Source of the DNA: a bacterium
Lineage (GTDB): Bacteria > Oederibacteriota > CAKKQC01
NCBI GenBank assembly: GCA_919901855.1
Contig: CAKKQC010000002.1
Span: 1 to 40,295 of the forward strand
Reading direction: 5' to 3'
DNA: 40,295 nt
How positions within the stretch are numbered: position 1 is the first letter of the stretch; every line of letters starts with the position of its first letter. The position numbers and the translations under genes are program-made. The notes under the pieces are model-generated. The model did no database searches. It had not been told where the DNA came from and worked only from the letters and a program-made list of their open reading frames with translations. This document shows, piece by piece, positions 3,676-32,061 of this stretch.

Positions 3676-5934
3676 GTGGGCACGCCGCTCCTCGTCCTCG
3701 GCTGGACCGCGCTCGTCCTCGCGAACTACCTCGCCGGACATCCCTGGGTCTGGAACGCCGACTGGCTCGCCAAGGCCGTCATCCCGCCCTGCGTGCCGTG
3801 GCGCGCTCCGCTGGGCGCCGAGCGCGCGCTCGCCCTCGCGCGGGCCGCGGCCCTGGTCGCGGTCTGGGCCGCCGGCGTCTTCGCCGCGGGCCACCGCTTG
3901 GGGGCGCTGGTCCGGTGTCCCGCCGAGGAGGGACCGATCCGGCTCCTGCTGGGGCTCGGCCTCGCGGCCCTCGGCTGGCTCGGGCTCGGGCTCGCGGGGC
4001 TCTGGTTCCCGCGCGTGGGCTGGGCGGGCGTGGCCGCGGGGGCGGCCGTCTGGATCGTCATCCACGGCCGGCGGGCGCTCGCGGGAGCGGTCCGGGTTCG
4101 GCCGGGGTGGTGGATGCTCCTCCTGCTGCCCATGATCTGGGTCACGCTCGCGGGGGCGACCAGCCCCGAAACCGAGCTGGACCCCGTCCGCTACCACCTC
4201 GGCCTGCCCGAGCGGTTCGCCCGGGCGCACCGGATCCTCGTGCCCGAGCGCAATATCTTCGCCTCGTTTCCGCTGAACGTCTCGATGCTGTACGGCTCGC
4301 TCGAGCTGTGCGGGGGGGCGGAGGCGGCGAAGCTCTTCAACTGGTCCCTGCTCTGGGCCGGAAGCTGGTTCGCGTTCACCTTCGCGGGGGGCGGCGCGGC
4401 GGGCCGGCTCGCGGCGCTGGCGTGGACCGCGGTGCCCGTCGTCTGGGTCCACGGTGCGATGGGGTTCGCGGAGCTGGCCGTGACGGCCTTCGAGTGCGGC
4501 GCGCTCCTGCTGCTCGTGGCCGGCGTCGCGCGGGGCGGCGGGTCGAGCCGGCTCGGCGCGGTCTCGGGCATCCTGGCCGGGTTCGCGCTCGGGTGCAAGT
4601 ACCAGGCGGTACACGCGGTCGTGCCGCTGTTCGTGCTCTGGGTCGTGCTGGGCCGGCGGTGGACCGCCCCGGCGGCTTTCGCCGCCGGTGCTTCGTCCGC
4701 CGTCCTGCCGTGGCTCGTCAAGAACTGGCTCTGGATGGGCAACCCCGTGCACCCGATCTTCTCGGGGCGCTGGCCCGATCTCGAGGACGCCTCCGCGGCG
4801 CTGGCGGCCTCGCGGTTCCGGCCGGAGGAGGTGCTGGGCGGTGGAGACCTGAGCCACGCGTTCGCCTCTCCGTGGACGGTCGGGCTTGTGTCCGATCGTC
4901 TCAACACCTACCCGTTCGGTCCCATCCTCCTGCTCTCGCTGCCATGGCTCGTGGCCGGGCTTGCGGGTAGGGCGGCGTCGCTGGCCTGGTACGCGGTCGG
5001 GTTCGTGGCGGCCTGGGGCGCGACGACGGCGGGGTGGGGCCGGTACCTGATCGGGGCCCTGCCCGCGTGGTTCGCGGTCGCCGCGGTGGCCGCGCGGCGG
5101 ACCGACGCGGCTCTTCCGGCGACCGCGCGCGTCTTCGCGCGCGCGGGGGCAGCGGCCGCCATCGCGGCCGGCTGGGCGCTGGGCGCCTCCGTGATCTTCC
5201 AGCGGCAGAACCCGCTCGAGGTGGCCTGCGGGTGCGTGCCCGCCGACCGGTCGCTGGTCTGGCGGATCAGCCCGCCGCGCCACGCGCTGCCCTCGCTGCG
5301 CGCCCTCTGCGACAGGATCGCCCCGGGGCGGCGCTTCTACGCGTACGGGCGCGCGACGGTCGCGTACGTGCCGCGCGAGTGGCACTGCGACTACGAGCAC
5401 GACACGCCGCTCTTCCAGCGGCTGATCAAGGCGTCGCGCGACCCTGCGGACCTGCGCAAGCGCTTCCGCCAGCGCGGCCTCGACGCGTTCTACTACGACC
5501 TCGCCGGCGGGGTGACGTTCGCCGAGGTCGGTGGAATGCTGCCGTGGACGGCGCGCGAGATCGCGCTGTGGCAGGAGTTCCTCCGGCAGTACGGCGAGCT
5601 CGCCGTCCGCGACGAGGTCGAGGGCGAGAACGTCGCGCTCTACGGGTACGTCCTGAGGCGGGCTCCCGAGGCGGCGGCGCGGCTCCCGCGGGGGACGGTC
5701 TGGCCGCACCTGCCGGGGCTCGAGCGGGCGCTCGTCGAGGGAGACCGCATCCACGCGCGCGGCGATCTCGAGGGCGCGCGGCGGTACTACGAGGCCGCGG
5801 CGGCCGTCCTGCCCGGGTACGCGTGGGTCCACCAGCGGCTCGCCGAGGTGGCCCGGGCGCTGCGCCGTCCTGCTGATGCCGCCGGCGCCGAGGCGGCGGA
5901 GGCGGAAGCCGCCTTGCGCCGGCTCGGCGGCTGA
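3676..5934 (+). CDS. GT-C-type membrane protein with soluble domain and TPR-like tail (paralog A)
   Basis: About 750 aa. Hydrophobic segments fill roughly residues 1-520. The first big loop carries D169-x3-Y-H174 within an ETELD...YHLGLPE context, and a later segment reads PWLVKNWLWMGNPVHP; both recur in five other proteins of this window. This layout fits lipid-linked-sugar glycosyltransferases (GT39/PMT-like GT-C fold). The soluble part (about 540-690) has the family's RFRQRG element, and a C-terminal TPR-like helical pair (about 700-745) ends the protein. It lacks the K-(N/D)-D loop motif of its relatives (FAELA instead). The start is taken as GTG 3676 because of the TATGCT at 3663; ATG 3664, four codons earlier and in frame, is the alternative. 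Acceptor and sugar are not predictable. Confidence 0.75.
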   Translation: MGTPLLVLGWTALVLANYLAGHPWVWNADWLAKAVIPPCVPWRAPLGAERALALARAAALVAVWAAGVFAAGHRLGALVRCPAEEGPIRLLLGLGLAALGWLGLGLAGLWFPRVGWAGVAAGAAVWIVIHGRRALAGAVRVRPGWWMLLLLPMIWVTLAGATSPETELDPVRYHLGLPERFARAHRILVPERNIFASFPLNVSMLYGSLELCGGAEAAKLFNWSLLWAGSWFAFTFAGGGAAGRLAALAWTAVPVVWVHGAMGFAELAVTAFECGALLLLVAGVARGGGSSRLGAVSGILAGFALGCKYQAVHAVVPLFVLWVVLGRRWTAPAAFAAGASSAVLPWLVKNWLWMGNPVHPIFSGRWPDLEDASAALAASRFRPEEVLGGGDLSHAFASPWTVGLVSDRLNTYPFGPILLLSLPWLVAGLAGRAASLAWYAVGFVAAWGATTAGWGRYLIGALPAWFAVAAVAARRTDAALPATARVFARAGAAAAIAAGWALGASVIFQRQNPLEVACGCVPADRSLVWRISPPRHALPSLRALCDRIAPGRRFYAYGRATVAYVPREWHCDYEHDTPLFQRLIKASRDPADLRKRFRQRGLDAFYYDLAGGVTFAEVGGMLPWTAREIALWQEFLRQYGELAVRDEVEGENVALYGYVLRRAPEAAARLPRGTVWPHLPGLERALVEGDRIHARGDLEGARRYYEAAAAVLPGYAWVHQRLAEVARALRRPADAAGAEAAEAEAALRRLGG

Positions 5935-5971
5935 TCCCGCCCGCCGCCGGGCATGGCATACTAATGGAATC

Positions 5972-7384
5972 GTGACACCGTCCACGGCGTCTCCCGCCCC
6001 CGACCTGACCCTGGTCCTGGCCTGCTACCACGAGGAGGCGATCCTCGAGGCGTCCGTCCGCCGTATCATCGGCACGCTCGAGGCGACCAGGTGGAACTGG
6101 GAGATCGTGTTCGTGGAGGACGCGTCGCGCGACCGGACCCGGGAGTTGCTGGGGCGGATCCTGGACGAGCGGCGGGACCCGCGCCTGCGAACCATCCTGC
6201 ACGAGCGGAACATGGGCCGGGGCCGGACCGTGGCCGACGGCTTCCGGGCCGCGCGCGGCGCGGTCGTGGGTTTCATCGACGTGGATCTCGAGGTGGGACC
6301 CGAATACATCCTGCCGTGCGTGCAGGCGATCCGCGACGGCGCCGACGTCGCGGTGGGCCGGCGCGTGTACAAGTTCTCGATCCGGGGGCTGTGGCGGTAC
6401 GCGCTGTCGACCGGTTACGCGCGGCTCGTGCACTCCCTCCTCCCGTCGAGCGGCGTCTCGGACACGGAGTCCGGGTACAAGTTCTTCCGGCGGGAAACCG
6501 CCCTGATGCTGATCGATCGCGTGACGGATCCCGGGTGGTTCTGGGACACGGAGATCATGTGCCGGGCCGCCGAAGCGGCCTGCCGCGTGGCCGAGGTGCC
6601 CTGCCTTTTCCAGCGTGACTTCCGCAAGCGGTCGACCGTGCGCGGCGTCCACGACAGCCTCGTGTACCTCGGGCGCCTGGCGGCGTTCCGGCGGACGCTG
6701 GCCGCGGAGACCCGGCTGCGGGCGTCGGACTCGTTCTGGCGCGAGCGGGCGGACGCTTTCGCCGACCACTACGCCGCCCGCGGGCCTTTCGTCCGGTTCG
6801 TGCGGTCGTTCCTCGGCCGCCGGGAGGCGCTGCTCGAACGCTGGCTCCGTGCCGCCCCGGGGACCCGGGTGCTCGAGGCCGGCTGCGGCCATGGGCCGGC
6901 CCTGGTCTCCCTCGTCGCGCAGGGGGCGCAGGTCACGGGGCTCGACGTGTCGGAGGCGATGCTCGAGCGCGCCCGGCACACCCTCGAGGCGGCCGGGAGC
7001 CGGGGGCACACGCTCCTCTGCACGTCCGTCGAGACCGCGGACCTGCCGGCGGAGTCCTTCGACCTCGTCCTCGCCGTCGGCCTCCTGGACTACCTCGTCG
7101 GGTGGCGGGAGGCGTTCCGGCGGCTGGTGGGCTGGACGAAGCCCGGCGGCCAGCTCATCGTCACGATCCCGAAGCGGCCCAGCCCCTTCGGGTTTCTGCG
7201 CCGCGGGCCGGGGCTCATGCTCCGCCGCGTCCTGTTCGACCTGCCGCCGATCGTGACCGCGGTGACGCGCGAGGAACTCGAGGACGCCGCGCGGGAGGCG
7301 GGCGTGCGACTCGACGAGGTCGCGTCCTGCCAGGGGACGATGTGGGCCGTCCGGGCGACCAGGCCGGTGGCGGGGCATCCTTGA
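5972..7384 (+). CDS. Fused GT2 glycosyltransferase / SAM methyltransferase
   Basis: A 470-aa two-domain protein. Residues about 8-225 are a GT-A family 2 domain of the dolichol-phosphate-mannose-synthase type: FVEDASRDRT for the nucleotide loop, the metal-binding D103-V-D105, and SDTESGYKFFRRE near the acceptor side. Residues about 250-465 are a class I SAM-dependent methyltransferase with motif I VLEAGCGHG at 300-308, GLDVS in motif II and a PGG post-II turn (KPGGQL). There is no hydrophobic anchor. The GT2 half could load a polyprenyl phosphate for the neighbouring GT-C enzymes, and the methyltransferase could modify the same glycan (inference). The start is GTG 5972, 9 nt after a CATACT element. 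The stop overlaps the TTG start of the next gene. Confidence 0.85.
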   Translation: MTPSTASPAPDLTLVLACYHEEAILEASVRRIIGTLEATRWNWEIVFVEDASRDRTRELLGRILDERRDPRLRTILHERNMGRGRTVADGFRAARGAVVGFIDVDLEVGPEYILPCVQAIRDGADVAVGRRVYKFSIRGLWRYALSTGYARLVHSLLPSSGVSDTESGYKFFRRETALMLIDRVTDPGWFWDTEIMCRAAEAACRVAEVPCLFQRDFRKRSTVRGVHDSLVYLGRLAAFRRTLAAETRLRASDSFWRERADAFADHYAARGPFVRFVRSFLGRREALLERWLRAAPGTRVLEAGCGHGPALVSLVAQGAQVTGLDVSEAMLERARHTLEAAGSRGHTLLCTSVETADLPAESFDLVLAVGLLDYLVGWREAFRRLVGWTKPGGQLIVTIPKRPSPFGFLRRGPGLMLRRVLFDLPPIVTAVTREELEDAAREAGVRLDEVASCQGTMWAVRATRPVAGHP

Positions 7385-8583
7385 AGAAGCGCTTCATCGT
7401 CTTCGGCGCTCCGCGACTCGAGCGGGCGGAGGAGCGCGAGGTCCTGGCCACGATGCGGAGCGGCTGGATCGGGACCGGGCCGCGGGTCGCGCGGTTCGAG
7501 GCCGCCTTCGGGAGGTACGTCGGGGCCCGCCACGCGGCGGCCGTGAGCTCGGGGACGGCCGCGCTCCACCTCGCCATGCTCGCGTCCGGGGTGGGGCCGG
7601 GGGACGAGGTCGTCACGACGCCGCTCACGTTCGCGGCCACGGCGAACGCGATCCTGCACGCCGGGGCCACACCCGTCTTCGCCGACGTGGACCCCGTGAC
7701 CCAGAACCTCGATCCCGGGCGCGCGGCGGCGGCGGTCACCCGTAAGACCCGTGCCCTGCTGCCCGTGCACTTCGCGGGCCGGCCCTGCGACATGGATGCG
7801 CTCGGCGCGATCGCGCGCCGCCGCCGGCTCCTCGTTATCGAGGATGCCGCGCACGCGATCGAGGCGCGGTGGCGCGGGCGCGCCTGCGGCACGATCGGCG
7901 ACCTCGGGTGTTTCAGCTTCTACGTCACCAAAAACCTCACGACCGCCGAGGGCGGGATGGTGACCACGGCGAAGGCCTCCTACGCGGAGACGGTGAAGAC
8001 CCTCGCCCTGCACGGGATGACCAAGGACGCGTGGCGCCGGTTCAGCGACAGCGGCTACCGGCATTACCAGGTCGTCGCGCCGGGGTTCAAGTACAACCTC
8101 ATCGACCTGCACGCCGCGATCGGTCTCCGCCAGCTCCCGCGGATCGAGCGCTGGTGGCGCCGCCGGCGCGCGCTCTGGGCGTACTACACCCGGCGGTTCG
8201 CGGGGCTGCCCGTGGCGCTCCCCTCCGCCGACGTGGGTCGCGGGCGGCATGCGCTCCACCTCTTCACCGTCCACCTCGACCTCGCCCGCCTGCGGCTCGA
8301 CCGCGACGGGGTCATGATGGCCCTGTTCCGCCGGGGCGTCGGCTGCGGTGTCCACTACATCGCCCTGCATCTCCAGCCGTACTACCGGAAGCGGTTCGGA
8401 TTCCGGCCGAATGACTTCCCGGTCGCGGCGTGGATTTCCGAGCGGACGCTCTCCCTGCCCCTTTCCGCCGCGCTCACCGACGGCGAGGCCGAACGGGTGG
8501 CCGACGCCTTCGTCGCGGTTATCCGGGGCGCGGCGCGAGCGCCCTCGGGCCGAGACGGCCCGCGGCGTTTCGGCTCCGCCTAA
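7381..8583 (+). CDS. DegT/DnrJ/EryC1/StrS-family PLP aminotransferase
   Basis: A 400-aa fold-type I PLP enzyme of the sugar aminotransferase family. It has GSGWIGTGP-like N-terminal features (RSGWIGTGPRV), the SSGTAALHLA cofactor-phosphate region, VIEDAAHA with the ring-stacking Asp, and FSFYVTKNLTTAEGGM, in which K184 is the Schiff-base lysine. Family members aminate a nucleotide-activated 4- or 3-keto sugar, which suggests an amino sugar in the local glycan. The TTG start at 7381 overlaps the previous stop by 3 nt, so translation is probably coupled. The last 12 codons and the stop lie in two GC-rich palindromes (8547-8589), so the C-terminal extension may be a late addition. Confidence 0.9.
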   Translation: MKKRFIVFGAPRLERAEEREVLATMRSGWIGTGPRVARFEAAFGRYVGARHAAAVSSGTAALHLAMLASGVGPGDEVVTTPLTFAATANAILHAGATPVFADVDPVTQNLDPGRAAAAVTRKTRALLPVHFAGRPCDMDALGAIARRRRLLVIEDAAHAIEARWRGRACGTIGDLGCFSFYVTKNLTTAEGGMVTTAKASYAETVKTLALHGMTKDAWRRFSDSGYRHYQVVAPGFKYNLIDLHAAIGLRQLPRIERWWRRRRALWAYYTRRFAGLPVALPSADVGRGRHALHLFTVHLDLARLRLDRDGVMMALFRRGVGCGVHYIALHLQPYYRKRFGFRPNDFPVAAWISERTLSLPLSAALTDGEAERVADAFVAVIRGAARAPSGRDGPRRFGSA

Positions 8584-8589
8584 ACGCCG
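8547..8589. repeat. Two adjacent GC-rich palindromes over the aminotransferase 3' end
   Basis: GGGCCG-AGA-CGGCCC (8547-8561) is followed by CGGCGTTT (8563-8570) pairing with AAACGCCG (8582-8589) across the TAA stop. They resemble the short palindromes in the genes at 22140 and after 32060. They may act as a 3'-end hairpin or be REP-like insertions. Confidence 0.5.
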
Positions 8590-8649
8590 TGCCGCAGTCG
8601 GTGAGGTGGCGGACACGCTGACCGCGGCCCGGCCGGCAGGCCCCAGCCG

Positions 8650-11094
8650 GTGAATGCCGTGCCGTACCCCCTGCTCGCGGGGATCGTCTGGGTCCTGTGG
8701 GCCGCCGCGCAGGCGGCCCGGGGCGGGGCGGAATGGGGGACGGCCCTCCGGGCGTGGAGCGCGGTGCCGTGGGGGCAGGTGTTCACCCCCGGCCTCCTGG
8801 TGGCGCCCTTGCGGCATGCGGCCCTGATCGCGGCGGCCCTCGTGGCGGCGTTCGTGTTCGCGGGGGTGGGCGCGCCGCTTCGCGACTGGTTCGACCCGCC
8901 GGCGCCGCGGACCCGGGACCGCGCGCTCCAGGAGCGGGCGCTCGAGCGGCGGGCACTCGCGGTCTTGTTCGGCTTCTCGCTGGCGGGCGCCGGCCTGCTG
9001 GCGCTCGCGCTCGCGGGGCTCTGCTACTCCGGGTTCCTGGTGGCGGGCGCCGTCGCCGGGCTCCTCCTGCCGGGGACCCGAGACCTTGCGGCCTCAGCCG
9101 GCCGTGCGGCCTCAGCCGGCCGGGCGGGCGCGCTCGGGTGCGCGGCGGGCGGGGCGCGAGGGCGTCTCGCGCCGGCCGGCCGGGGCTGGTTGGCGGTCGC
9201 GCTCGGCCCCGGGGCCGTGGTCCTCCTGCTCGCGTTGGTGCCCGACATGCACGTGGACACCTACACGTACCACCTCGCGATTCCCGAACAGCTCCTCCGG
9301 GTGCACCGGTTCACGGCGGAGGGGACGAGCCTGGCGCACCAGTGTCCGCTGACGGCGGAGCTCGTCTACCTGGCGGCGGTCGCGACCGGCCGGGACGCGC
9401 TGGCCCACTGGCTCCAGCTCGTTCCATTCGCGGCCGGCGCGGCGCTGCTCGTCGCGTGGGCCGCCGCCGCCGGGGGCCGGACGGCGGGATGGCTCGCCCT
9501 CGTGCTGGTCGCGACGTACGGCGAGACGGGGCGGCAGGCATTGGTGGCCAAGAACGACCTCGCCGCGGCCGGCTACGTGCTGGCGGGCGCCGTGCTCCTG
9601 GCGCGCGGCCGCACGGCGCCGGGGCTCGTCCTGTTCGGGTGCGGCGCCGGAGTGAAGTTCAACGCCATGATCCTGGCCGCCGTCGCCGCGGTCCTCGTGA
9701 TCCCGCGGCGCGGCGTCCTCCGCGCGCTCGCCTGCGCGGCCCTGCCCGTGGCGCCGTGGCTGGTCAAGAGCTGGCTCATGGTCGGGGACCCGCTCTGGCC
9801 GGTCCTCGCGCGCTGGTGGCCGGGGGCCCTCACGGACGCGGCCTCCCAACGGGCGGTCGAGGTGATGCGGGGCGTCCCGCGTCCCAACCTCCCCGCGGAC
9901 GTCGCGACGATACTGGGCTCGTCCCACCCCCTGCTCCTCGCCCTCCTCCCGTGGGCGTTGGCGGCGGCCTGGCGCGGCGGCGCCGGACGGCGGTGGCTGG
10001 CCGCCTTCTCGGTACTCGGCGTGGCCGTGCTCGCGGCGACCGTGCCGTCCGAATGGGAACGGCTGGCGTTGCCGGCGATCCTGGCCTGGGGGGCCCTGGC
10101 GGCCGTCGCCGCCGTCCGGGCCCGGCTCTGGCCGGTCCCTTCCGGGGTCCGCCGCGCACTCCTGGCGGCCGTCGTTGTCGCCTGCTGGGTCCCTGTCGGG
10201 GCCGTCGTGGCTACGAGTACGGACGCGAGGACGGCGGCGGCGTGGCTCGCGGGGTCGCTGTCCCCGGAGGCGCACCGGGCCCTGCGGCTGACGACGTACG
10301 AGGAGACCGCGGCGGCTCTGCGCGCCCTGCCGGACGTCCGGCGTCTCCTCCTCATCGGCGAGATCCGTACGTACCGGCTCCCGGGTCGGGCCCTGTCGGA
10401 ACGGTGCTGGGGCCGGACTTGGGGCTGGGTGCTGGCGGGGGAGCGCGCCACGCCGGGGCGAATGCGCGTGGCGATGCGTCAGATGAACGTCAGGCACCTG
10501 GTCTACAACTTCGTGACCGAGGGCTTCCCGCACGCGTCCGCGGAGCCGTTCACTTGGGGAGACGCCCGGCTTGCGCGCTGGCGGACGTTCGTGGCCCGGG
10601 ACCTCGAGATCGTGATCCGGCCCCGGCACGTGGATCACGAGAACGGCGGGTTCTGCGTCTACGCGCTCCGGTTGCCGCCGCTGGCCGCCGATCCCGCGTA
10701 CCTCGAGTACCTGCCCGGCCTCGCCAGCCTCTACGGGACCGTCGTGACGCACGGGCTGACCGGGGACGCGAAGGGGTGGATCCTGGCCGCGCTCGCACTC
10801 GCCGCGCGCCTGCCGAACGTGGACTTCGTCGGCGATCTCGTCGGGGGCGGGTATGCCGCCATGCACCGCTGGCCGGAGGCGTACCGGTGGTATGCGCCGG
10901 GCATCCGGCACGGTACGGTCGACGACCAGAACTGGTGGGACACGGCGCTGGCCGCGGGGGCGCTGGGCCGGTTCGACGAATCCTACCGGTGCTTCATCCG
11001 GGCGGTCGAGATCTCGCCCTACCTGGCCCCCGCCGCCGAGCAGGCCCTGGGGGAGCTCCACCGGGCCGCCGCCCAGGACAGCCGCTATCGCTGA
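8650..11094 (+). CDS. GT-C-type membrane protein with soluble domain and TPR-like tail (paralog B)
   Basis: An 814-aa polytopic protein of the same family as 3676-5934. D203-x3-Y-H208 (VDTYTYHLAIPE) sits in the first large loop, VAKND in a later loop, and PWLVKSWLMVGDP before the final membrane helices. The soluble domain (about 550-690) carries RQMNVRHLVYNF. After YLPGL comes a helical TPR-type region (about 700-805; WPEAYRWYAPG, FDESYRCFIRAVEISP). An 18-bp perfect tandem repeat at 9087-9122 encodes the hydrophilic linker AASAGRAASAGR after the third helix. The start is GTG 8650; GTG 8659 is also possible. The gap of 66 bp from the aminotransferase suggests the same operon. Specific activity is unknown. 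Confidence 0.75.
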   Translation: MNAVPYPLLAGIVWVLWAAAQAARGGAEWGTALRAWSAVPWGQVFTPGLLVAPLRHAALIAAALVAAFVFAGVGAPLRDWFDPPAPRTRDRALQERALERRALAVLFGFSLAGAGLLALALAGLCYSGFLVAGAVAGLLLPGTRDLAASAGRAASAGRAGALGCAAGGARGRLAPAGRGWLAVALGPGAVVLLLALVPDMHVDTYTYHLAIPEQLLRVHRFTAEGTSLAHQCPLTAELVYLAAVATGRDALAHWLQLVPFAAGAALLVAWAAAAGGRTAGWLALVLVATYGETGRQALVAKNDLAAAGYVLAGAVLLARGRTAPGLVLFGCGAGVKFNAMILAAVAAVLVIPRRGVLRALACAALPVAPWLVKSWLMVGDPLWPVLARWWPGALTDAASQRAVEVMRGVPRPNLPADVATILGSSHPLLLALLPWALAAAWRGGAGRRWLAAFSVLGVAVLAATVPSEWERLALPAILAWGALAAVAAVRARLWPVPSGVRRALLAAVVVACWVPVGAVVATSTDARTAAAWLAGSLSPEAHRALRLTTYEETAAALRALPDVRRLLLIGEIRTYRLPGRALSERCWGRTWGWVLAGERATPGRMRVAMRQMNVRHLVYNFVTEGFPHASAEPFTWGDARLARWRTFVARDLEIVIRPRHVDHENGGFCVYALRLPPLAADPAYLEYLPGLASLYGTVVTHGLTGDAKGWILAALALAARLPNVDFVGDLVGGGYAAMHRWPEAYRWYAPGIRHGTVDDQNWWDTALAAGALGRFDESYRCFIRAVEISPYLAPAAEQALGELHRAAAQDSRYR
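9087..9122 (+). repeat. 18-bp perfect tandem duplication inside paralog B
   Basis: The unit TGCGGCCTCAGCCGGCCG occurs twice in direct succession (9087-9104, 9105-9122). It keeps the frame and lengthens a loop between membrane helices. Confidence 0.85.
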
Positions 11095-11139
11095 TAGTGG
11101 CGGCCACGGGGCAGGGACCTTCCCTCCCGGGTCGGGTGT

Positions 11140-11145
11140 TAGCAT
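11140..11145 (+). promoter_or_regulatory. -10-like TAGCAT before the 11155 gene
   Basis: TAGCAT is 9 nt before ATG 11155 in a 60-bp gap after paralog B, so this gene probably has its own near-leaderless promoter. No convincing -35 is seen. Confidence 0.4.
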
Positions 11146-11154
11146 ATTGGGAAC

Positions 11155-13126: not shown

Positions 13127-13137
13127 GGTCGCGGCGC

Positions 13138-14001: not shown

Positions 14002-14053
14002 GCTCCTGGCCGCCGCGGACGAGCGGGACGGTTCGCGGGCCCGTCGCCGGGCC

Positions 14054-14386: not shown

Positions 14387-14418
14387 GGGCTCCTCCTCCA
14401 CAAGGGTCTCGAACCTCA

Positions 14419-14424: not shown

Positions 14425-14435
14425 GGGGCTGGCCG

Positions 14436-19837: not shown

Positions 19838-21413
19838 CCGGAAGCCGGACGCGTCACGCCGCCGGCGCGCGGACGCCGGGGCGGGCAGCGGGCCGACGAT
19901 GACGGGCCTGACGGGTCCGGAAGCCCGCGCGCTGGGGCTGGCCCGGCGCAGCCGCTGGCCGCATGCCCTCCTCGACGGGGCCCGGGGCCTCGTCGACGCG
20001 TATCCCGATGTCGCGTCGTGGACCCGGCTTCTGCCGAAGCTCCGCCCCGGTCTCCGGAAGGGCGGCCTCGCGGTGGCGTGGCCGGCGCGGAGCCGGGGCA
20101 CGGTCCTGCCCCTCTCGGGCGGAGGCTGGCTCCTGCTTGGCCCCTTCCGCGGCCGGGGGCCGGATGCGGCGGTTCTCGAGGCCCTGACCGCCTTCCTGGG
20201 CGAGTGCCGGACGGCGCGTGCCGAGGCGACCCGGAAGGCGCTCGAGGCCGACCGGCTCCGCGACGAGGAATCGTCGGCCCAGGTGGCCCTCTCGCGCAAG
20301 GAGCGCACGCTCCAGGCGGTCATGCACCTGGGCCGCGTCCTCGCCTCGGTCAAGGATCTCCGGGAACTCGTGGGGTCCTCGATGGTCCCGGAGATGGTCC
20401 AGCTCCTGAACGCCGACCGGGGGAGCGTGTTCATCATCGACGAGGAGCGGCAGGAGCTGTATTCCATCATCGCCATGGGCGTCGAGTTCAAGGAGATCCG
20501 GATGCCGCTCACCGTCGGGCTCGCGGGCTGGGTGGCGCGCACCGGCGAGGTCCTCAACGTGCCGGACGCCCACGCGGACGCCCGGTTCAACCCGGAGTTC
20601 GATCTCCGCACGGGGTACCGGACCCGGAGCGTCCTCGCGGTGCCGCTCGTGGACCCGCAGGGCAAGCGGTTCGGCGTCGTCCAGGTCATCAACAAGAAGA
20701 CTTCTCCGCGGTTCACGCGCGAGGACGAGGAGCTGCTCCAGGCCGTCGCCGCCGAGGCCGCGGTCGCCATCCTCAACACCCGGCTCGTGGAGCAGGTCAA
20801 GGCGCTGTTCGACAGCGTGATTTCGTCGATGGCGACCGCCCTCGACGCCCGGGACAACAGCACCTCCGGCCACACGCACCGGGTGACCGACTTCGCGCTC
20901 GGGGTCGCCAAGCGGCTCGGGATGAACCGGGCCCAGCTCGACCGGGTCCGCATCGCGGGCATGCTCCATGACATCGGCAAGATCGGGACGCCGGACGCGA
21001 TCCTGAAGAAACCCGGACTGCTGACGCCCGAGGAGCGCGCAATCATGAACCAGCACGCGTCCTACTCGCGCAGCATCATCAGCACCCTCAAGCTGCCCAC
21101 CGAGCTGGCGGGGCTGGCGGACGACGCGGCGGGACATCACGAGTGGTGGAACGGGAACGGGTACCCGCTCAAGCTCAAGGGCGAGGGCATCCCGCTGGTC
21201 TCGCGCGTCCTCGCGGTTGCGGACGTCTTCGACGCGATCACGAGCAAGCGCCACTACCGGGATGCCATGCCGATCGACCAGGCCCTGGCCATCATCCGCG
21301 ACGGGACCGGCACGCACTTCGACCCGGCTTGCGTGCAGGCGTTCTTCCGTTTCTACGATGAGGACCTGCGCGAGACGTTCACCCGCGAGGGGGGGAACGG
21401 CGGCGAGGGGTGA
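19827..21413 (+). CDS. GAF-HD-GYP protein, putative c-di-GMP phosphodiesterase
   Basis: 528 aa from GTG 19827 (ATG 19899 is an alternative). After a variable N-terminal region and a charged helix (about 125-165), a GAF sensory domain spans roughly 170-325 (NADRGSVFIIDEE, VGLAGWVARTGEVLNVPDA, VLAVPLVD). An HD-GYP domain follows (about 330-505): SGHTHRV, LHDIGKIG with H381-D382, HHEWWNGNGYP with G445-Y446-P447, and DVFDAITSKRHYR. All metal-binding and GYP residues appear intact, so c-di-GMP hydrolysis is likely. No membrane helix is seen. Its TGA overlaps the GTG start of the next GT-C gene, so sensing and glycan assembly are probably co-expressed. Confidence 0.9.
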   Translation: MATDRKPDASRRRRADAGAGSGPTMTGLTGPEARALGLARRSRWPHALLDGARGLVDAYPDVASWTRLLPKLRPGLRKGGLAVAWPARSRGTVLPLSGGGWLLLGPFRGRGPDAAVLEALTAFLGECRTARAEATRKALEADRLRDEESSAQVALSRKERTLQAVMHLGRVLASVKDLRELVGSSMVPEMVQLLNADRGSVFIIDEERQELYSIIAMGVEFKEIRMPLTVGLAGWVARTGEVLNVPDAHADARFNPEFDLRTGYRTRSVLAVPLVDPQGKRFGVVQVINKKTSPRFTREDEELLQAVAAEAAVAILNTRLVEQVKALFDSVISSMATALDARDNSTSGHTHRVTDFALGVAKRLGMNRAQLDRVRIAGMLHDIGKIGTPDAILKKPGLLTPEERAIMNQHASYSRSIISTLKLPTELAGLADDAAGHHEWWNGNGYPLKLKGEGIPLVSRVLAVADVFDAITSKRHYRDAMPIDQALAIIRDGTGTHFDPACVQAFFRFYDEDLRETFTREGGNGGEG

Positions 21414-23806: not shown

Positions 23807-26106
23807 ACGGGGGCTACTGGATCTGGATCGCGGTGGCCGCCGGCCTCTTCGTCGCGCGTTGGTGGCCGGCCCTCCGCACCGCCCTGCCGGACCCGGCCGG
23901 GTGGCACGGGCTCGCGGACCAGGCGGCCGGAGCCGCGGTCCGGCAGTCTCTTGCCCAGGCGGCCGCCGTCGTTCTCACCGCCGCCGCCGTCCTGGGCACG
24001 GCGGGGCCGGGCGGTCCAGTCGCGCGCTGGCTCCGGTTCCGCGGAGCCGGGCTGGTCCGCGGCCTCGCGCGGACCGGTCTCGGACTGGCCGTGGTGTCTC
24101 CCGCCGCGCTCGCGCTCGGGCTCGCGGGGCTCGCGCATCCGGTCCTCGCCGTCCCGGCCGCCGCCGCGCTCGTGATCGCGGGCTTCCGGGTGTCCCCGGC
24201 CCTCGCCCGGGGCGCGCGTCCCGCGTGGCCCCTGATCCTCGCGGCGCTCGTGCTGGTTCCCGTGGCCGTGGTTCCCGACCTCGAGGTGGACAGCCTGATC
24301 CAGCACCTCGCGTTGCCCGCCGGGTGGGTGCGGGCCCACCGGATCTTCGCGCGGCCCGATCTTTCGGTGGGAGTCCTCTGGCCGGGGCGCGAAGTCCTGG
24401 GCTGGCCCGGCCTCGCGCTCGGGTCCGAGCCCGCCGCCGTGCTCCCCAGCCTCGGGTGCGCCGGCCTGGCGGGGGCCGCCGCGTCCGCGGCGGGCTCCGG
24501 GGGCTGGTGGGTGGGCGCGGCGGTGCTCGCGTCCCCGCAGCTCGCGGTGGTCGCGTGCTCGGCCAAGAACGACTCGCTCGCGATCGCGCTCGTTTCGGCC
24601 GGCCTCGTCAGCGCTCGCGCCAATGGCGGCGCCGGGGGCGCGGCGGCCGCCGCGGTGGCGGGGGTTCTGGCGGGCGCGGCGGTCGCCGCGAAGTCCACGG
24701 CCGCCATCGCCGTGCCGGCCTTCCTCGCCGTCCTGCTCGCCGCCCGCGGTCCATCCGGCCGCCGTAGCCGGGCCGGCTGGTTCCTCGCCGCCGCCGCGGG
24801 CGTCTCCCTGCCCTGGGCCGTCCGGAACTGGCTCGACCTCGGCAACCCGGCCGCGCCGCTCCTCTCGGGGATGATTCCGACGCTCGGATGGGACCCGGTC
24901 CGCGCGGAGCTCGCGGCCCGGTATGTCCGCACGTGGAGCGATCTGGACCCTGAGTCGGTTCTCGGCGGGGTGGCGGCCCTCGTCCGGATCCTGGGCGGGT
25001 TCAACCTCCTCTGCGGGGCCGCCGTTCTCGTGCTCCCGTTCTCGGTGTCTTCGCTGTCCCGGACCGGGCGCGCCGGCCTTTTCGCGGCTGCCGGCGTCCT
25101 GCTCTGGCTCTCGTCCCTGGCCTGGGTCTCCCGGTACCTCCTGCTCTTCCTGCCCGCCCTGACCGCGGCGGCGGCGGCCCTGCTCGTGGCGCGGGCCGGC
25201 GCGGCGGTGGTCAACCGGTGGGCGGCCGCGTCGGCCGTTCTCGGGCTCGTGGTCGCGCTGGGCGCGGGAGGGGGCGCGCGGCCGGTGCCGTGCGCCTTGG
25301 GGCTGGAGAGCCGGGCGCACTTCGCCGCCCGGGCGCAGGGCGTCTTCGGGGAGATGGCCCGCGAGGTCGCGGCGCGCGTCGCTCCTGGCGCGCGCGCCCT
25401 CACGGTCGGCGAGTGGCGGGCGGATCCCGCGGGCCGGCTCCTGCCCTGCGCGCCCGTGGACCGGCCCGCCATCTGGGCGCTCGCCCGCGAGGCGGATTCC
25501 GGGGGGCGGATGCGCATCCGGTTGCGGCAGCAGCGGGTGTCGCACCTCCTCTTCAACCTGCCGCAGGCCGGGTTCTGGGCCGACTACGCGGCGCGGTCGC
25601 CGTGGACGCCGGGGGCGGTCGCGCGCTGGGGCGGGTTCTGGGATGCTTCGGCCACGCTCGTCTGGCGGTCGGCGGCCCAGGATCCCGTCCTGGGATTCTT
25701 CCTCCTCTACCGGCTCTCGCGGGGGCCGGGGGAGGAGCCGGCCCGGGGCTGGTTGCCGGGCACCGAGGGCGAGTTCCTTGAGGTTCGCCGGTTGGCGGCG
25801 CGATCGGCCGGCGATCCCGCGGTCGACCGCGAGTTCACCCGGCTGGACGCGCTCTTCGGCCCGCGCGCGGACGTGCTGGCGCGGCGCGGGTGCCTGCTGG
25901 CCGCTCAAGGCCGCTATCCCGAGGCGCTGGCCGCGTTCCGCCTTGCGACCCGGGCGGCGCCGGAGGCGCGGCCGGTCTGGTCGTCCTATGGAGCGGTCCC
26001 GATCCGGACCGCGGCGGAGCTTCTCCGGTACGCGCGCGCGCGACCGGACGTGGTGAACGCGGGCTTCATGCTGGGTATCCCGGTCGCATTGGCGGCCGTA
26101 TACTGA
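23803..26106 (+). CDS. GT-C-type membrane protein with soluble domain and helical tail (paralog D)
   Basis: 767 aa, beginning with a GTG that shares GTGA with the previous stop. Membrane helices reach about residue 500. The conserved loop is D163-S-L-I-Q-H168, so the Tyr of D-x3-Y-H is Gln here while the His is kept. Later come SAKNDSLAIAL and PWAVRNWLDLGNPAAP. The soluble part matches paralog C closely (RLRQQRVSHLLFNLPQAGFW, WDASATLVW, FFLLYRLSRGPGEEP, GWLPGTEGEF), pointing to tandem duplication of C and D. The C-terminal tail is helical and ends in a segment like that of C (DVVNAGFMLGIPVAL compared with DVVNMGFTMGIPVAL). Probably a lipid-linked-sugar glycosyltransferase. Confidence 0.78.
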   Translation: MNGGYWIWIAVAAGLFVARWWPALRTALPDPAGWHGLADQAAGAAVRQSLAQAAAVVLTAAAVLGTAGPGGPVARWLRFRGAGLVRGLARTGLGLAVVSPAALALGLAGLAHPVLAVPAAAALVIAGFRVSPALARGARPAWPLILAALVLVPVAVVPDLEVDSLIQHLALPAGWVRAHRIFARPDLSVGVLWPGREVLGWPGLALGSEPAAVLPSLGCAGLAGAAASAAGSGGWWVGAAVLASPQLAVVACSAKNDSLAIALVSAGLVSARANGGAGGAAAAAVAGVLAGAAVAAKSTAAIAVPAFLAVLLAARGPSGRRSRAGWFLAAAAGVSLPWAVRNWLDLGNPAAPLLSGMIPTLGWDPVRAELAARYVRTWSDLDPESVLGGVAALVRILGGFNLLCGAAVLVLPFSVSSLSRTGRAGLFAAAGVLLWLSSLAWVSRYLLLFLPALTAAAAALLVARAGAAVVNRWAAASAVLGLVVALGAGGGARPVPCALGLESRAHFAARAQGVFGEMAREVAARVAPGARALTVGEWRADPAGRLLPCAPVDRPAIWALAREADSGGRMRIRLRQQRVSHLLFNLPQAGFWADYAARSPWTPGAVARWGGFWDASATLVWRSAAQDPVLGFFLLYRLSRGPGEEPARGWLPGTEGEFLEVRRLAARSAGDPAVDREFTRLDALFGPRADVLARRGCLLAAQGRYPEALAAFRLATRAAPEARPVWSSYGAVPIRTAAELLRYARARPDVVNAGFMLGIPVALAAVY

Positions 26107-26113
26107 GACCGCG

Positions 26114-27082
26114 ATGAAGTGCCTCGCGCTGATGTCCGGCGGACTCGACTCGTTCCTCGCGATCAAGGTGATCCAGGAACAGGGGATCGAGGTGCTCGCG
26201 CTCAACTTCCAGACGCCGTTCTGTTCGGCCGCGGGACGTTCGGCCTCCTGCGGCGACGCGGTGGCCCTCGCGGGGGCGCAGCAGATCGACCTGCGCGTCC
26301 AGTTCCTCGGTGCTGAGTTCCTCGACCTCGTGGCCCACCCCCCGCACGGGTGGGGGCGGAACATGAATCCGTGCATCGACTGCCGCATCCTCATGCTCCG
26401 GCGGGCGAAGGCGCTCCTCGAGCCCTCGGGCGCCTCGTTCGTGATCACGGGGGAAGTGGTCGGCCAGCGTCCGATGTCCCAGCACCTGGCCGCGATGCGC
26501 ACCGTCGAGGCGGAAAGCGGGCTCGAGGGACTGCTGGTGCGGCCGCTCTCCGCGAAGCTGCTGCCACCCACGATTCCGGAAACGAAGGGGTGGGTGGACC
26601 GCGAGCGCCTGCTGGATCTCCGGGGACGGAGCCGGAAGGTCCAGCTCGCGATGGCGAAGGCGCTCGGGCTCGAGTATCCGCCGACCCCGGCCGGCGGCTG
26701 CCTGCTCACGGACCCCGCGTACGCGGCGCGGCTGCGGGACGTGCTCGGGCACGCCGGGGGCCTGACCGCGCACCTCGCGCAGGCGGTCCGGTTCGGCCGG
26801 TACGTCCGGCTCTTGCCCGCGTCGTTCCTGATGGTGGGACGCAACGAGCGCGACAACGCCGCGCTCGAGGGGCTGCAGGCCGCGGACGAGTGGATCCTGC
26901 GGCCCGTGAACTGCGTGGGGCCCGTGGTCCTCGGCGTCGGTCCGCTCGACGAGGGGTCGCGCGCGCACGCGGCTGGTCTCCTCGCCCGGTACGCGGACGC
27001 GCCCGCCGATGGCCGGGTCGAGATCGAAGCCAGGCTTGGGCCCGCGGGCGAGGCGGTCCGGCTCGAAGGCCGCAAGCCGTGA
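26114..27082 (+). CDS. ThiI-like PP-loop ATPase, putative tRNA thiolation enzyme
   Basis: 322 aa. The N-terminal PP-loop is ALMSGGLDSFLAIK. NMNPCIDCRILMLRRAK supplies a CxxC pair that may hold sulfur or a metal, and VITGEVVGQRPMSQ and RPLSAKLLPPTIPE follow; PTPAGGCLLTDP adds a third conserved Cys. This matches the ThiI/MnmA-related proteins of about 320 aa that lack the THUMP domain and are usually annotated as tRNA thiouridine synthases. The last 100 residues form a separate small domain. It sits between GT-C genes, overlapping the next one by GTGA, although its sulfur chemistry fits better with the larE-desulfurase-mnmA group 5 kb downstream. Confidence 0.8.
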   Translation: MKCLALMSGGLDSFLAIKVIQEQGIEVLALNFQTPFCSAAGRSASCGDAVALAGAQQIDLRVQFLGAEFLDLVAHPPHGWGRNMNPCIDCRILMLRRAKALLEPSGASFVITGEVVGQRPMSQHLAAMRTVEAESGLEGLLVRPLSAKLLPPTIPETKGWVDRERLLDLRGRSRKVQLAMAKALGLEYPPTPAGGCLLTDPAYAARLRDVLGHAGGLTAHLAQAVRFGRYVRLLPASFLMVGRNERDNAALEGLQAADEWILRPVNCVGPVVLGVGPLDEGSRAHAAGLLARYADAPADGRVEIEARLGPAGEAVRLEGRKP

Positions 27083-29559
27083 TTCCCGCGCCCGGGCTCT
27101 CCCGGGTCCCGGGTGCGGCGGGCTGGTTCGCGCTCGGAATCGCGGCGACGTTCCCCCTCTGGTCCACCTGGGTCGCGGCGTGGCACCTGACCCTGATGTC
27201 GCTCGGGGGCGCCATGCCGGCGGATGCCGCGGTCCTGGGGCGGGCGGCCGCCGGCCATCTCGCGGCGGCGGCGGGGCTCGCGGCCATGCTCGCGGCGGCT
27301 TTTGCCGCGGGGACGCCGGTCGTCCGCGTCATCCGTCTTCGGGGCGACGCCCTGGACCGGGCCGGCTGGGGATGGCTCCTGGGCGCCGCCCTGGCCTCGG
27401 GGCTCGGCCTCGCCCTCGGCCTCGCGGGTCTCCTGCGCCCTACCGTGCTCGCGACCGTCTCGCTCGTCGGCGCCGCCCTGGGGGCGCCCGGCCTTCTCCG
27501 CCTCGGGTGGAGCCCGGCCAGGGGATCGCGGGTCCCGGTCGCGCTCCTCGCCGCCGTACTCGCCGGGTACGCGCTCCTCACGCGGCTCCCGGGCACCCTG
27601 CAGGATCCCATGGCCTACACCTTCGCGGCGGCGGAGGAGTACCTGCGGGCCGGCCGGCTGCACGCGGAACTCGCGCACTTCCAGTGGACGATGCCGCTCG
27701 GGCTCGAGATGCTCTACCTCGTGCCGTGGTGGCTCGGAGGAATCACGGCGGCCAAGCTCGTGAACCTCGCGCTGCTCGTCGCGGGCTGCGTCGCGATCCG
27801 CGGGCTCGCCCGGGCGCTGGGTGGGCGAGGCGCCCCGGCCGCGATTCTCTTCGGGTCGGCGGGCGTCGTCGCCAACATCGTCTGGCAGGGGAAGGACGAT
27901 CTGGCGGCCGCCGTCTTCGCCGCCGGCGCCGGCTGGGGCGTCGCGCTCGGGCTGGGCGGATCGTCCGCGGCCTGGCTGGCCGGCGGAGCGTGCGCGGGGG
28001 CCGCGGTCGCGTGCCGGCTGACGGCCGGGCTCGCGGTCGTCCCGCTGGCCCTGGCCGCGCTCGCCGTGGCCCCGCGCCGGTCCCGGGTCGCGGGGGCCGT
28101 CGCGGCGGGGCTCTTCGTATGCGGACCGTGGCTCGTCCGGAGCTGGCTCGAGTGCGGTAATCCCTGCACGCCGTTCGCCACGCGCCTGTTCCCGGACCTC
28201 GGTTGGTCGCCGGCCCTGCAGGAGTCCCTGCGGGGGTTCGCCCTCGGGCTGTCGTCTTCCGGCCCGTGGCGCCCCTCCGAGGTCATGGCCGGCGTCTGGC
28301 GCGTCCTCGGCGACCCCGAGGTGGGATCGGCGGCCCTCGTCATCCTGGTCCCACTCGGCTGGATCCTGTCGCGCGGCGCGGCGCCGGGCGCACTCAGGCT
28401 CGCGGCGGTCGCCGCGTACGCGTGCTGGCTGTCGACGGAGCGCAACCCCCGGTTCCTGCTGCCCGTGGTGCCCTGGCTCGCGGCCCTGGCGTCGGTCGTT
28501 TCGACCGCAGGGGCGGGCGGCGCCTCGCCCCTCCGGCCCCGGCTGGCTCGAGTCGCCTCGTCCGCGCTTGGGCCGATGACGGCCACGGCGGCGCTGGCGG
28601 CCCTGCTGGCGGCGGGCCGGATCGCCTCGCCCGACGGCCCCGCGGTCTGGCTGGGCTCGGCCGGCCGCGACGAGGTCTGGAAGCGCCGGTTCACGACGTA
28701 CGAGACGACCCGGCGGTGGGCCTGCCGCGCCCTGCCCGCGGACGCCCGGATCCTGCTCACGGGCGGGGACCGGCGCCTCGGGTTCGGTCGCCGGGTGTTC
28801 AGCACGGCGCTCATCTTTACGCCGCCCTTCTGGGCGCTGACCCGGGACGCGTCGACGCCCGGGGAGGTTCGCAAGCGCCTCCGTCAGCGCGGGATCACGC
28901 ACTGGCTGAACAACTTCGTCGAGGGCGAGTACCGGGGGCTGGGCTGGTACCAGGGGCCCGCGTGGGACGACCGCCAGCTTGCGCTCGGCGTGACGTTGAT
29001 GCGCCGGTACGCGCGGCCGGTCCGGGGGCCCGACACCGTGGACCACGAGGGCGGCGGATACTGGGCGTTCGAGCTGACGCGCGCGCCCGGCGATTTCCCC
29101 GCGATGTTCCTCCCCGGGACCGAGGGCCGGCTAAAAGACGCGTTCGGCCGGTACCTGACCGGCGATGCGACGGGCGCCTTCGCCGACGCCCGGCGGCTGG
29201 CGGGGCCGGCCGCGGAGCTGCTCGAGGTGCAGGCCCTGCTGGCCTTCCTCGCGCTCGAGGCGGGCGAGCCGGAGACGGCGTCCCGGTGGCTGAAGGCGGC
29301 CCGGCGGGCCGGGTACGTCGGGGACGGCACGCTCATCCACGAAGCGATGGCCGACCTCGCGACGGGGCGCACCGACGAGGCGGTTCGGGCTGCCGCCCGC
29401 GCCGCCCTCATGCACGGCCCCGATCACCGCCTGCTGGGGTCGGTGCTTTCGGCGCGCGCCCGCGTGCGCGCCGCGCGCGGCGACCGCTCGGGGGCGGCCC
29501 GGGACCTGGCCGAGGCCGCGTGGTGGCGAACGGGCACCCGGCGCGGGGGGAAGCCGTGA
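27079..29559 (+). CDS. GT-C-type membrane protein with TPR-like tail (paralog E), loop His replaced
   Basis: 826 aa, starting with GTG at the overlapping GTGA. Membrane helices reach about residue 530. The first-loop motif reads D176-P-M-A-Y-T181: the His present in the five relatives is Thr (codon ACC) and the following Pro is Ala (TFAAAEE instead of HFAAPEE). WQGKDDLAAAVF and PWLVRSWLECGNP are kept. The soluble part has KRLRQRGITHWLNNFVEGEYRGLGWY and FLPGTEGRLKDAF, then a helical tail. It is about as similar to paralog F as C is to D. The lost His suggests changed or absent catalysis. Hydrophobic core and frame are intact, so it is not a simple pseudogene. Confidence 0.78.
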   Translation: MIPAPGLSRVPGAAGWFALGIAATFPLWSTWVAAWHLTLMSLGGAMPADAAVLGRAAAGHLAAAAGLAAMLAAAFAAGTPVVRVIRLRGDALDRAGWGWLLGAALASGLGLALGLAGLLRPTVLATVSLVGAALGAPGLLRLGWSPARGSRVPVALLAAVLAGYALLTRLPGTLQDPMAYTFAAAEEYLRAGRLHAELAHFQWTMPLGLEMLYLVPWWLGGITAAKLVNLALLVAGCVAIRGLARALGGRGAPAAILFGSAGVVANIVWQGKDDLAAAVFAAGAGWGVALGLGGSSAAWLAGGACAGAAVACRLTAGLAVVPLALAALAVAPRRSRVAGAVAAGLFVCGPWLVRSWLECGNPCTPFATRLFPDLGWSPALQESLRGFALGLSSSGPWRPSEVMAGVWRVLGDPEVGSAALVILVPLGWILSRGAAPGALRLAAVAAYACWLSTERNPRFLLPVVPWLAALASVVSTAGAGGASPLRPRLARVASSALGPMTATAALAALLAAGRIASPDGPAVWLGSAGRDEVWKRRFTTYETTRRWACRALPADARILLTGGDRRLGFGRRVFSTALIFTPPFWALTRDASTPGEVRKRLRQRGITHWLNNFVEGEYRGLGWYQGPAWDDRQLALGVTLMRRYARPVRGPDTVDHEGGGYWAFELTRAPGDFPAMFLPGTEGRLKDAFGRYLTGDATGAFADARRLAGPAAELLEVQALLAFLALEAGEPETASRWLKAARRAGYVGDGTLIHEAMADLATGRTDEAVRAAARAALMHGPDHRLLGSVLSARARVRAARGDRSGAARDLAEAAWWRTGTRRGGKP

Positions 29560-32060
29560 CGGCGGCGCGGCGCGGCGCGGTCTTCCTCGCGTGGCTGGCG
29601 GCCGGCGCCTGGGCGACCCGCGACGTCTGGGCCCGGTGGCAGGCCGCGTTCCGGGGCCTGCTGGCGGGGCTCGCGGACTCTCCGCCGGAGAGCGCCGGCA
29701 TACTGGGTCACGCGCTCGCGGGCCACGCGGCCGCCGCCGGCGGGCTGGTGGCGCTCCTCGCCGCGGCGGTCGCCGCCGGGGGGCTCCCGGCCCGGTGGGC
29801 GGGGATGTACCGCGGCGGCCCTTCGGGCGGCGGCGCCCCGGGCGGCGGGGCCGCGGACCGGCTCGCGTGGCAATGGCTGGCGGGGTGGGGCGTGCTGTCG
29901 CTCGCCGGGTTCGCCTTGGGGCTGACGGGCCTCCTGCGCGGCCCCGTGCTGGCCGCGGCCGCCATCGCGGTCCCCGCGGCGGGACTGCGCGGCCTGTGCC
30001 GGGGAGCTCGTGCCGTCGGCCGGCCCTCCCCCGGACTCCCCGTGATCCTCCTCGGTCTGGTCCTCCTCGCGGGCTTCCTCCTCACCCGGCTGCCGAGCAC
30101 GCACGAGGACCCCATGGTCTACCATTTCGCGGCGCCGGAGGAGTACCTGCGCGCGGGACGGATCCACGCGGAAGTCACGCACATCCAGTGGACGATGCCG
30201 CTCGGACTCGAGATGCTCTACCTCGTGCCGTGGTGGGTCGCCGGGATCACGGCGGCCAAGCTCGTGAACCTCGGGATGATCCTGACCGCGTGTCTCGCGA
30301 TCCGCGGGATCGCGGCGGCGCTTGGCGGTCCGGGCGTCTGGGCAGCCTTCCTCTTCGCCTCGGCGGGGCTCGTCGGGAACCTGCTCTGGCAGGGCAAGAA
30401 CGACCTCGCCTGCGCCGCGTTCGCGGCCGGAGCGGGGCTGGGCGTCGCCCGGGCGCTCGCCGGCCGGTCCGGGGGATGGCTGGCGGCAGGCTGGTGCGCG
30501 GGTTGTGCGGTCGCGTGCCGGCTGACCGCGGGCGTGACCATGGTCCCGCTCGCCGTGGCGGCCCTCGTCGTCGCCGGTCACCGGGTACGCCCGATCGCCG
30601 CCGTGTCCGGCGTCATTGCGGGTCTCGCGGCATGCGGGCCATGGCTCGTCCGGAGCTGGCTCGATGCCGGGAACCCGTTCACGCTCTTCGCCTCCGGGAT
30701 CTTCCCGGATCTCGCGTGGTCGCCGTTCCTCCAGGCCGCGCTGCGCCACTACACGCTCCTGCTCTCGAGCGCGGGTCCGTTCCATCCGTCCGACCTGGTC
30801 ATGGGCGCCTGGCATGTCCTGGGGGTGGCCGAGATCGGGTCCCTGGCGCTCCTCGTGCTGGGCGGCCTGGGGCTGGTGGCGGTCCGGGGAACCACGGGTA
30901 CGGCTCTCCGGATCGCGATGGCGTCCGCCTACGTGATCTGGCTGCCGACCGAGCGCAACCCGCGGTTCCTCCTGCCGCTCGTCCCGTGGGTCGCGGCGTT
31001 CGCGGCCTGCGCCGCGTTCGCCGGCGGGGACGCGCGGTCCAGGACCGGCAGGATCGCGGCTGCCGCCCTCGTGCCCCTGGGCGTCGCCGCCGCGGGAGCC
31101 GCGCTCGTGCACGCCGGCGCGCTCGCCTCGCCGGACGGCCCCGCCGTCTGGACCGGCATGGCCGGTCCCGACGCGGTGCGCCGGCGGCAGAACACGACGG
31201 CCGAGACGACGCGCCGGTGGGTGAACGCCGCGCTGCCGGGGGACGCCCGCCTGCTGCTCACGGGCGGGGCGAAGCGCCTCGGGTTCGCGCGCCGGGTGAT
31301 GAGCACCGGCCCGATCGGGATGCCGCCGTTCTGGGTCCTGACGCACGAGACCTCGACCCCTGCGGAGATGCGCAAGCGGCTCCGACAGCGCGGCGCGACC
31401 CACTGGATGCACAACTTCATCGAGGGGGAGTTCCGGGGGCTCGGCTGGTACCCCGGCCCCAAGTGGGACGAGCGCCAGCTCGCGCTCGGCGTCGAGTTCA
31501 TGCGGCGGTATGCCCGGCCGGTCCGGGCGCCCGAAGCCGTCGACCACGAGGGCGGGGGCTACTGGGTGTTCGAGCTAACGAGAGCGCCGGGCGGGTTCCC
31601 GCCGATGTTCCTGCCCGGGACCGAGGGGCGGCTCAAGGCCGCGTTCGACCTCCGGGATGCCGGCGACGCCGGGGGCGCGTTCGGGGAGGCGGGACGGCTG
31701 GCGGGGCCGGCCGTCGAACTGCTCGAGGTGCAGGCGATCATGGCCACCTTCGCCCTGCAGGCGCGGCAGGCGGCGACCTCCTACAAGTGGTTCGCGCCCG
31801 GCGTGCGCGCGGGCTACATCGGCGACGGGAACCTGGACTACTTCGCCGCGACCGAGGTCATGCTGGGGCGGCCCGATGCGGCGGTGCGCGACGCCGCCCG
31901 GGCCGCGCGGGTCTTGGGGCCGGATCGCCGGCTACTGGCCCGCGCGCTCCAGGACCGCGCCCGGGCCCGCGCCGGCCGCGGGGACCGCGCGGGGGCGGCT
32001 CGCGACTCGGCGGAGGCCGCCCGGTGGTGGCGCGGGGCACGCCTGGCGGGCGGCGGCTGA
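29556..32060 (+). CDS. GT-C-type membrane protein with TPR-like tail (paralog F)
   Basis: 834 aa; GTG start sharing GTGA with the previous stop. D185-P-M-V-Y-H190 gives the complete loop motif, followed by WQGKNDLACAAF and PWLVRSWLDAGNPFT. The soluble domain reads KRLRQRGATHWMHNFIEGEFRGLGWY, then VDHEGGGYWVFELTRAPG, FLPGTEGRLKAAF and a helical tail (about 700-834). It ends the overlapping gene run; two strong hairpins follow. Together with E it is the clearest recent duplicate in the window, and it is the copy with intact motifs. Confidence 0.8.
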   Translation: MTAARRGAVFLAWLAAGAWATRDVWARWQAAFRGLLAGLADSPPESAGILGHALAGHAAAAGGLVALLAAAVAAGGLPARWAGMYRGGPSGGGAPGGGAADRLAWQWLAGWGVLSLAGFALGLTGLLRGPVLAAAAIAVPAAGLRGLCRGARAVGRPSPGLPVILLGLVLLAGFLLTRLPSTHEDPMVYHFAAPEEYLRAGRIHAEVTHIQWTMPLGLEMLYLVPWWVAGITAAKLVNLGMILTACLAIRGIAAALGGPGVWAAFLFASAGLVGNLLWQGKNDLACAAFAAGAGLGVARALAGRSGGWLAAGWCAGCAVACRLTAGVTMVPLAVAALVVAGHRVRPIAAVSGVIAGLAACGPWLVRSWLDAGNPFTLFASGIFPDLAWSPFLQAALRHYTLLLSSAGPFHPSDLVMGAWHVLGVAEIGSLALLVLGGLGLVAVRGTTGTALRIAMASAYVIWLPTERNPRFLLPLVPWVAAFAACAAFAGGDARSRTGRIAAAALVPLGVAAAGAALVHAGALASPDGPAVWTGMAGPDAVRRRQNTTAETTRRWVNAALPGDARLLLTGGAKRLGFARRVMSTGPIGMPPFWVLTHETSTPAEMRKRLRQRGATHWMHNFIEGEFRGLGWYPGPKWDERQLALGVEFMRRYARPVRAPEAVDHEGGGYWVFELTRAPGGFPPMFLPGTEGRLKAAFDLRDAGDAGGAFGEAGRLAGPAVELLEVQAIMATFALQARQAATSYKWFAPGVRAGYIGDGNLDYFAATEVMLGRPDAAVRDAARAARVLGPDRRLLARALQDRARARAGRGDRAGAARDSAEAARWWRGARLAGGG

Positions 32061-32061
32061 A

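Follow-up and report, generated by a model that had tools for sequence, protein, structure and literature searches.

The 40,295-nucleotide stretch of DNA analysed here, which we call the window throughout, carries within 28 kb six genes for large membrane proteins that resemble one another, two pairs of them in tandem, and the question that it raises is what a bacterium would do with so many related proteins in one place. A first-pass annotation had read them as GT-C glycosyltransferases fused to soluble and TPR modules, and had proposed that they were expanded in place as a multi-enzyme machine for glycan synthesis or protein glycosylation, possibly with each paralogue adding one residue. We find that the six are very probably GT-C enzymes and that they belong to a family of 77 copies scattered over the genome, with consequences for how the locus itself is to be understood.

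The six window paralogues and their predicted fold

Paralogues A (3676-5934, 752 aa), B (8650-11094, 814 aa), C (21410-23806, 798 aa, with its start at 21410 or 21440), D (23803-26106, 767 aa), E (27079-29559, 826 aa) and F (29556-32060, 834 aa) were all confirmed as open reading frames on the forward strand, with translations free of internal stops. C and D form one tandem pair, in which the GTG start of D overlaps the stop of C by 4 bases (GTGA), and E and F form the other. Homology of the six is borne out by significant blastp E-values in nearly all pairs, and the tandem pairs, at 59-61% identity for E/F and 44-46% for C/D, are far closer than the rest, which mostly share 26-36% over their aligned parts. 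The dN/dS ratios (NG86) are ~0.46 for E/F and ~0.59 for C/D, at a divergence too high for such values to be reliable. The motifs described earlier are present in the alignment, namely the first-loop D (mostly with YH), K-(N/D)-D, PW..GNP, RQ(R/Q/M) and LPG-x-E; K-(N/D)-D is, as had been noted, absent from A, which reads F-A-E there, but the acidic position is still filled by Glu. ARAGORN placed a tRNA-Glu of 94 bases on the reverse strand at window positions 32041-32134, overlapping the 3' end of F; Rfam finds no tRNA there, and the call is probably false.

When the six are searched as whole proteins, Pfam and NCBIfam assign them to no GT-C family. AlphaFold2 models of F (with 73 paralogues as the alignment; pLDDT 91.9, pTM 0.93) and of A, the shortest-tailed of the six and the one lacking K-(N/D)-D (62 paralogues; pLDDT 88.6, pTM 0.92), both show a GT-C fold followed by a soluble domain and a helical, TPR-type tail, the architecture first read from the sequence. 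F is modelled with a GT-C core at residues ~155-530, an alpha/beta soluble domain at ~560-680 and TPRs at 690-831, and A with the same order of domains and a short tail of 70 aa. Comparison of F with the PDB gives AglB (Z 20.7), ArnT (20.1), Pmt4 (19.2), STT3 (19.0) and ALG12 (18.6), the matches spanning ~155-680 except that of Pmt4, which is limited to the membrane part; residues 690-834 match TPR proteins with Z of ~15, and Foldseek places F against ArnT with an E-value of 5.5e-6. For A the top match is again ArnT (5f15, Z 22.6), and Emb/Aft enzymes also match both models structurally. Comparison of A with the PDB by sequence only gave no match, and hhalign of the family profile with only E. 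coli ArnT was not strong enough to bring the first loops into alignment.

The lipid A aminoarabinose transferase ArnT (PDB 5ezm/5f15) is thus the best or tied-best fold match, covering core and soluble domain over ~430-440 residues of F and A at Z of 20-23, with an equivalent catalytic-type Asp in the first loop by offset count. Identity to it is 13-14%, and, unlike ArnT, the family has four to five additional helices at the N terminus, a TPR tail and ~77 copies; no partner family, of arn type or other, recurs among its 163 neighbouring genes. The oligosaccharyltransferases STT3, AglB and PglB, whose donors are lipid-diphosphate oligosaccharides, match at Z 15-21 with the soluble part included, but the 62 members scanned give no match to STT3 (PF02516) at E<=0.001. 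Likeness to the PMT_2, GT39-like bacterial transferases (PF13231) is partial: 23 of the 77 copies overlap a match at E<=1e-3 and 12 exceed the curated cut-off, F reaches 25.4 where the cut-off is 26.1, and 12 of the 62 members scanned against Pfam match the model, but the majority of members, five of the six window proteins among them, have no listed match, and the soluble and TPR parts are left uncovered.

A family of 77 copies and its age

A profile built from the six gave 78 matches, representing 77 distinct copies, in the host genome (4.68 Mb in 91 contigs, 93.5% complete, 0.72% contamination), and a broader profile added 2 or 3 more. The matches total 165.6 kb, or 3.5% of the genome, and the 77 copies are spread over 59 loci on 30 contigs; 48 of these loci are single copies and the remainder are arrays of 2-4. 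Given 77 copies genome-wide, six in 28 kb is only mild clustering (P ~0.01 if copies are placed uniformly), and a cluster of the same size, six further copies in 26 kb, occurs on contig C1. Also on C1, two adjacent YfhO-like membrane proteins (L055:6214-8472 and L055:8480-10744, reverse strand), ~50% identical, sit between family members as another local membrane-protein duplication. In the tree the six are divided among four distinct branches of the 77-member family: C and D adjoin a copy on contig C51, E and F adjoin copies on C12 and C10, the nearest relatives of B are two copies on C27, and A groups with a copy on C40, where both branches are long and the placement is uncertain. The phylogeny therefore recovers C/D and E/F as local duplicates, for which expansion in place is an apt description, but A and B have their nearest relatives on other contigs, and the family extends far beyond the six. 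There are in addition 24 PMT_2 matches outside the 77 copies, and counting these the genome may hold ~100 GT-C proteins in total.

So large a number could be a binning artefact, the copies of many organisms having been merged into one genome, and the assembly is indeed a draft of many contigs. We consider this extremely unlikely, given the low contamination, the position of the copies on large contigs amid metabolic genes, and the ~50 pieces with orthologous pairing in an independent genome from the same taxonomic family.

Seventy-three copies are intact and four have in-frame stops or frame breaks. Among the intact copies (in the numbering of F) the first-loop D185 is present in 73 of 73, position 283 is acidic in every one (63 D, 10 E), position 322 is always K or R, P374 is likewise invariant, R470 is found in 71 and R/K610 in 72. 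D185 of F and D169 of A, its catalytic-type Asp, fall within ~1 residue of CmArnT D55, a correspondence obtained as an offset count from the first aligned residues and not by superposition; D55 is a known active-site acid and part of the first-loop acidic motif that has been described as the active site in several GT-C enzymes (PMC7801869). Because both acids are kept in all 73, the intact copies look like enzymes and not like relics, so far as sequence can indicate. The superfamily does contain inactive relatives of the PIG-U type (PMC7801869), and most copies might by analogy have put the GT-C fold to use as scaffolds or sensors without catalysis, a reading that the complete retention of both acids makes very unlikely.

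The profile search across genomes sets the 77 copies against 0-7 in the relatives sampled outside the taxonomic family. There are 0-7 copies in each of 43 other genomes of the phylum; outside the phylum there are 0-7 in each of 100 genomes drawn from Elusimicrobiota, and 1-7 in each of 36 genomes, mostly Elusimicrobiota, that were selected by way of named loci. A second genus of the same taxonomic family yields ~50 matching pieces from a fragmented draft (83% complete), some of which belong to the same gene, while a few are chance matches to TPRs only. The expansion is thus specific to the taxonomic family in the genomes sampled, ~130 of them outside the phylum and two from the family itself. 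An expansion of this kind is not described in the literature that we searched, although this does not prove that no description exists.

In a FastTree tree of 111 rows, in which deep branches are unsure, ~20 copies pair with one orthologue each in the second genus, often with high support, and the copies from the phylum's other families group together. Most of the expansion is therefore older than the split of the two genera. Several clades, those of the window pairs included, have no sampled orthologue in the sister genus, and the four broken copies may point to gene birth and death, or else to assembly errors; both would suit a set of partly redundant GT-C enzymes that share one surface glycan or lipid as their target and whose diversity itself is selected, as a defence against phage, predators or hosts. 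A family with ~20 conserved orthologues and with its acids in place in every intact copy appears too stable for such envelope variation, which we regard as quite improbable.

Gene neighbourhood and possible donor supply

Genes around the six were predicted with a codon-usage script. In the window, genes of glycan type are flanked by A and B only, and are a GT2-methyltransferase fusion (5972-7384) and a DegT/DnrJ/EryC1-type sugar aminotransferase (7381-8583), both on the forward strand. The run that holds C, D, E and F also contains a gene for a TPR protein, a GAF-HD-GYP gene and, between the two pairs, a gene with a ThiI-like HUP domain and NFACT-R (26114-27082, forward strand) that is not glycan-related by annotation; several neighbours in this run overlap by 4 bases. 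An 848-aa protein consisting almost entirely of TPRs (17291-19837) lies immediately upstream of the HD-GYP gene and of C. A NAD-synthase-like gene, a class-V aminotransferase of cysteine desulfurase type and mnmA occupy 32224-35246, and together with the gene at 26114-27082 these constitute a tRNA-thiolation-type group adjoining and lying between the GT-C pairs. At the other end of the window (1646-3625, reverse strand) is a 659-aa membrane protein with no Pfam match, whose RDLDLLHEG stretch and C-terminal part resemble a divergent GT-C protein by eye; hhalign of this protein to the family was not significant.

The genes among and around the six, such as dapF, mnmA, the cysteine desulfurase and HD-GYP, are ordinary ones, and family neighbours elsewhere in the genome include tRNA synthetases, arginine biosynthesis, aconitase and G6PD. 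No recurring partner was found among the 163 neighbouring genes genome-wide, and no Pfam family occurs more than three times in either half-set. A dedicated glycan island can thus be rejected as a general rule, the neighbours being ordinary metabolic genes with no enrichment. Nor do the data support the 28-kb stretch as a dedicated multi-enzyme machine, since its six members come from four branches and have ordinary neighbours; with 48 of the 59 loci single, the distribution comes close to what the first-pass annotation had itself named as a refutation, single homologues in unrelated contexts, which tells against a local machine and leaves the GT-C identity of the proteins unaffected.

The GT2 transferases have not grown in number with the family. 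This genome has 21 of them and its relatives have 10-27, so that no co-expansion is seen, and they are outnumbered by the family almost 4:1 in this genome; several of them resemble polyprenyl-phosphate-sugar synthases, all under curated cut-offs. Surface proteins with FlgD_ig domains, a candidate class of acceptors, do not increase along with the family either: there are 52 in the 4.68 Mb of this genome and 41 in the 2.9 Mb of a relative that has two family copies, and co-expansion is again not seen. PKD domains form repeats in long open frames from window position 39294 to ~43341 of contig C2, and PKD_4 has 12 matches here and 0-3 in ten relatives; these are few and mostly in one gene region.

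Emb/Aft enzymes, which match A and F, build mycobacterial arabinan sequentially, and members of the same superfamily might here build one or a few large periplasmic glycans in sequence, each paralogue contributing a single residue and the whole set drawing on a few lipid-phosphate sugars. Few donors would be needed for this, so the flat number of GT2 genes is compatible with it, and the two glycan-type genes between A and B would fit. It is harder to reconcile with 77 genes in 59 loci amid metabolic genes, with no recurring glycan-assembly partner, and with the dispersal of the six over four family branches; we consider sequential building possible, if doubtful.

A proposed division of acceptors among paralogues

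Eukaryotes offer a broad parallel in the O-mannosyltransferases TMTC1-4 (GT105) and TMEM260 (GT117), in which a GT-C module is likewise followed by TPRs, these lying in the lumen, the equivalent of the periplasmic side. The human enzymes serve different protein domains, their paralogues acting on different acceptor proteins, and recruitment of the acceptor by the TPRs is so far a proposal (PMC11292533); full-length prokaryotic TMTC homologues have already been reported (PMC7801869). The present family differs in having an alpha/beta soluble domain between the GT-C and TPR parts, in the lack of a match to the TMTC loop domain DUF1736 (PF08409) at E<=0.001 among the 62 members scanned, and in having ~77 copies where these systems have 4 or 1.

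Divergence by domain bears on how the copies may differ from one another. Between orthologues of the two genera conservation is similar throughout (soluble domain 0.54, TPR 0.47, core 0.51), whereas among paralogues divergence is greatest outside the core (soluble domain 0.23, TPR 0.20, core 0.245). This contrast is modest; soluble and TPR parts that are kept in orthologues and are most diverged among paralogues would fit a separate partner for each lineage. In the tandem pairs C/D and E/F there is a trend for the core to diverge and the soluble domain not to, which is not significant over 13 local pairs (p 0.18). The tail after LPGxE exceeds 80 aa in 58 of the 73 intact copies and is 40 aa or less in eight, and with these eight almost tail-less, any choice of acceptor through TPRs could not be universal.

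The best explanation, and on the present analysis an even call, is that the copies are parallel, acceptor-specific periplasmic GT-C transferases broadly like TMTC and TMEM260. Each would be an inner-membrane GT-C enzyme that takes its sugar from a polyprenyl-phosphate-sugar and uses the invariant first-loop Asp and the second acid on the periplasmic side, with the acceptor held by the periplasmic alpha/beta domain and the TPR tail of that same copy. The donors would be few, common to all copies and made by the GT2 set of normal size, and the acceptors would be many and split among the paralogues, being probably exported proteins or envelope glycans. In its full form, with tens of GT-C/TPR enzymes each glycosylating its own exported protein or envelope acceptor, the proposal is a bold one that we think rather unlikely to hold.

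If it were true, however, a poorly known candidate phylum would possess a system of acceptor-coded surface glycosylation that by far exceeds in size the PMT, TMTC and TMEM260 sets of eukaryotes. Independently of this, the more than 70 diverged, apparently active copies make a natural set from whose sequences the choice of acceptor and donor might be read, and they make the idea proposed for TMTC enzymes, that the TPRs pick the acceptor, testable in bacteria.
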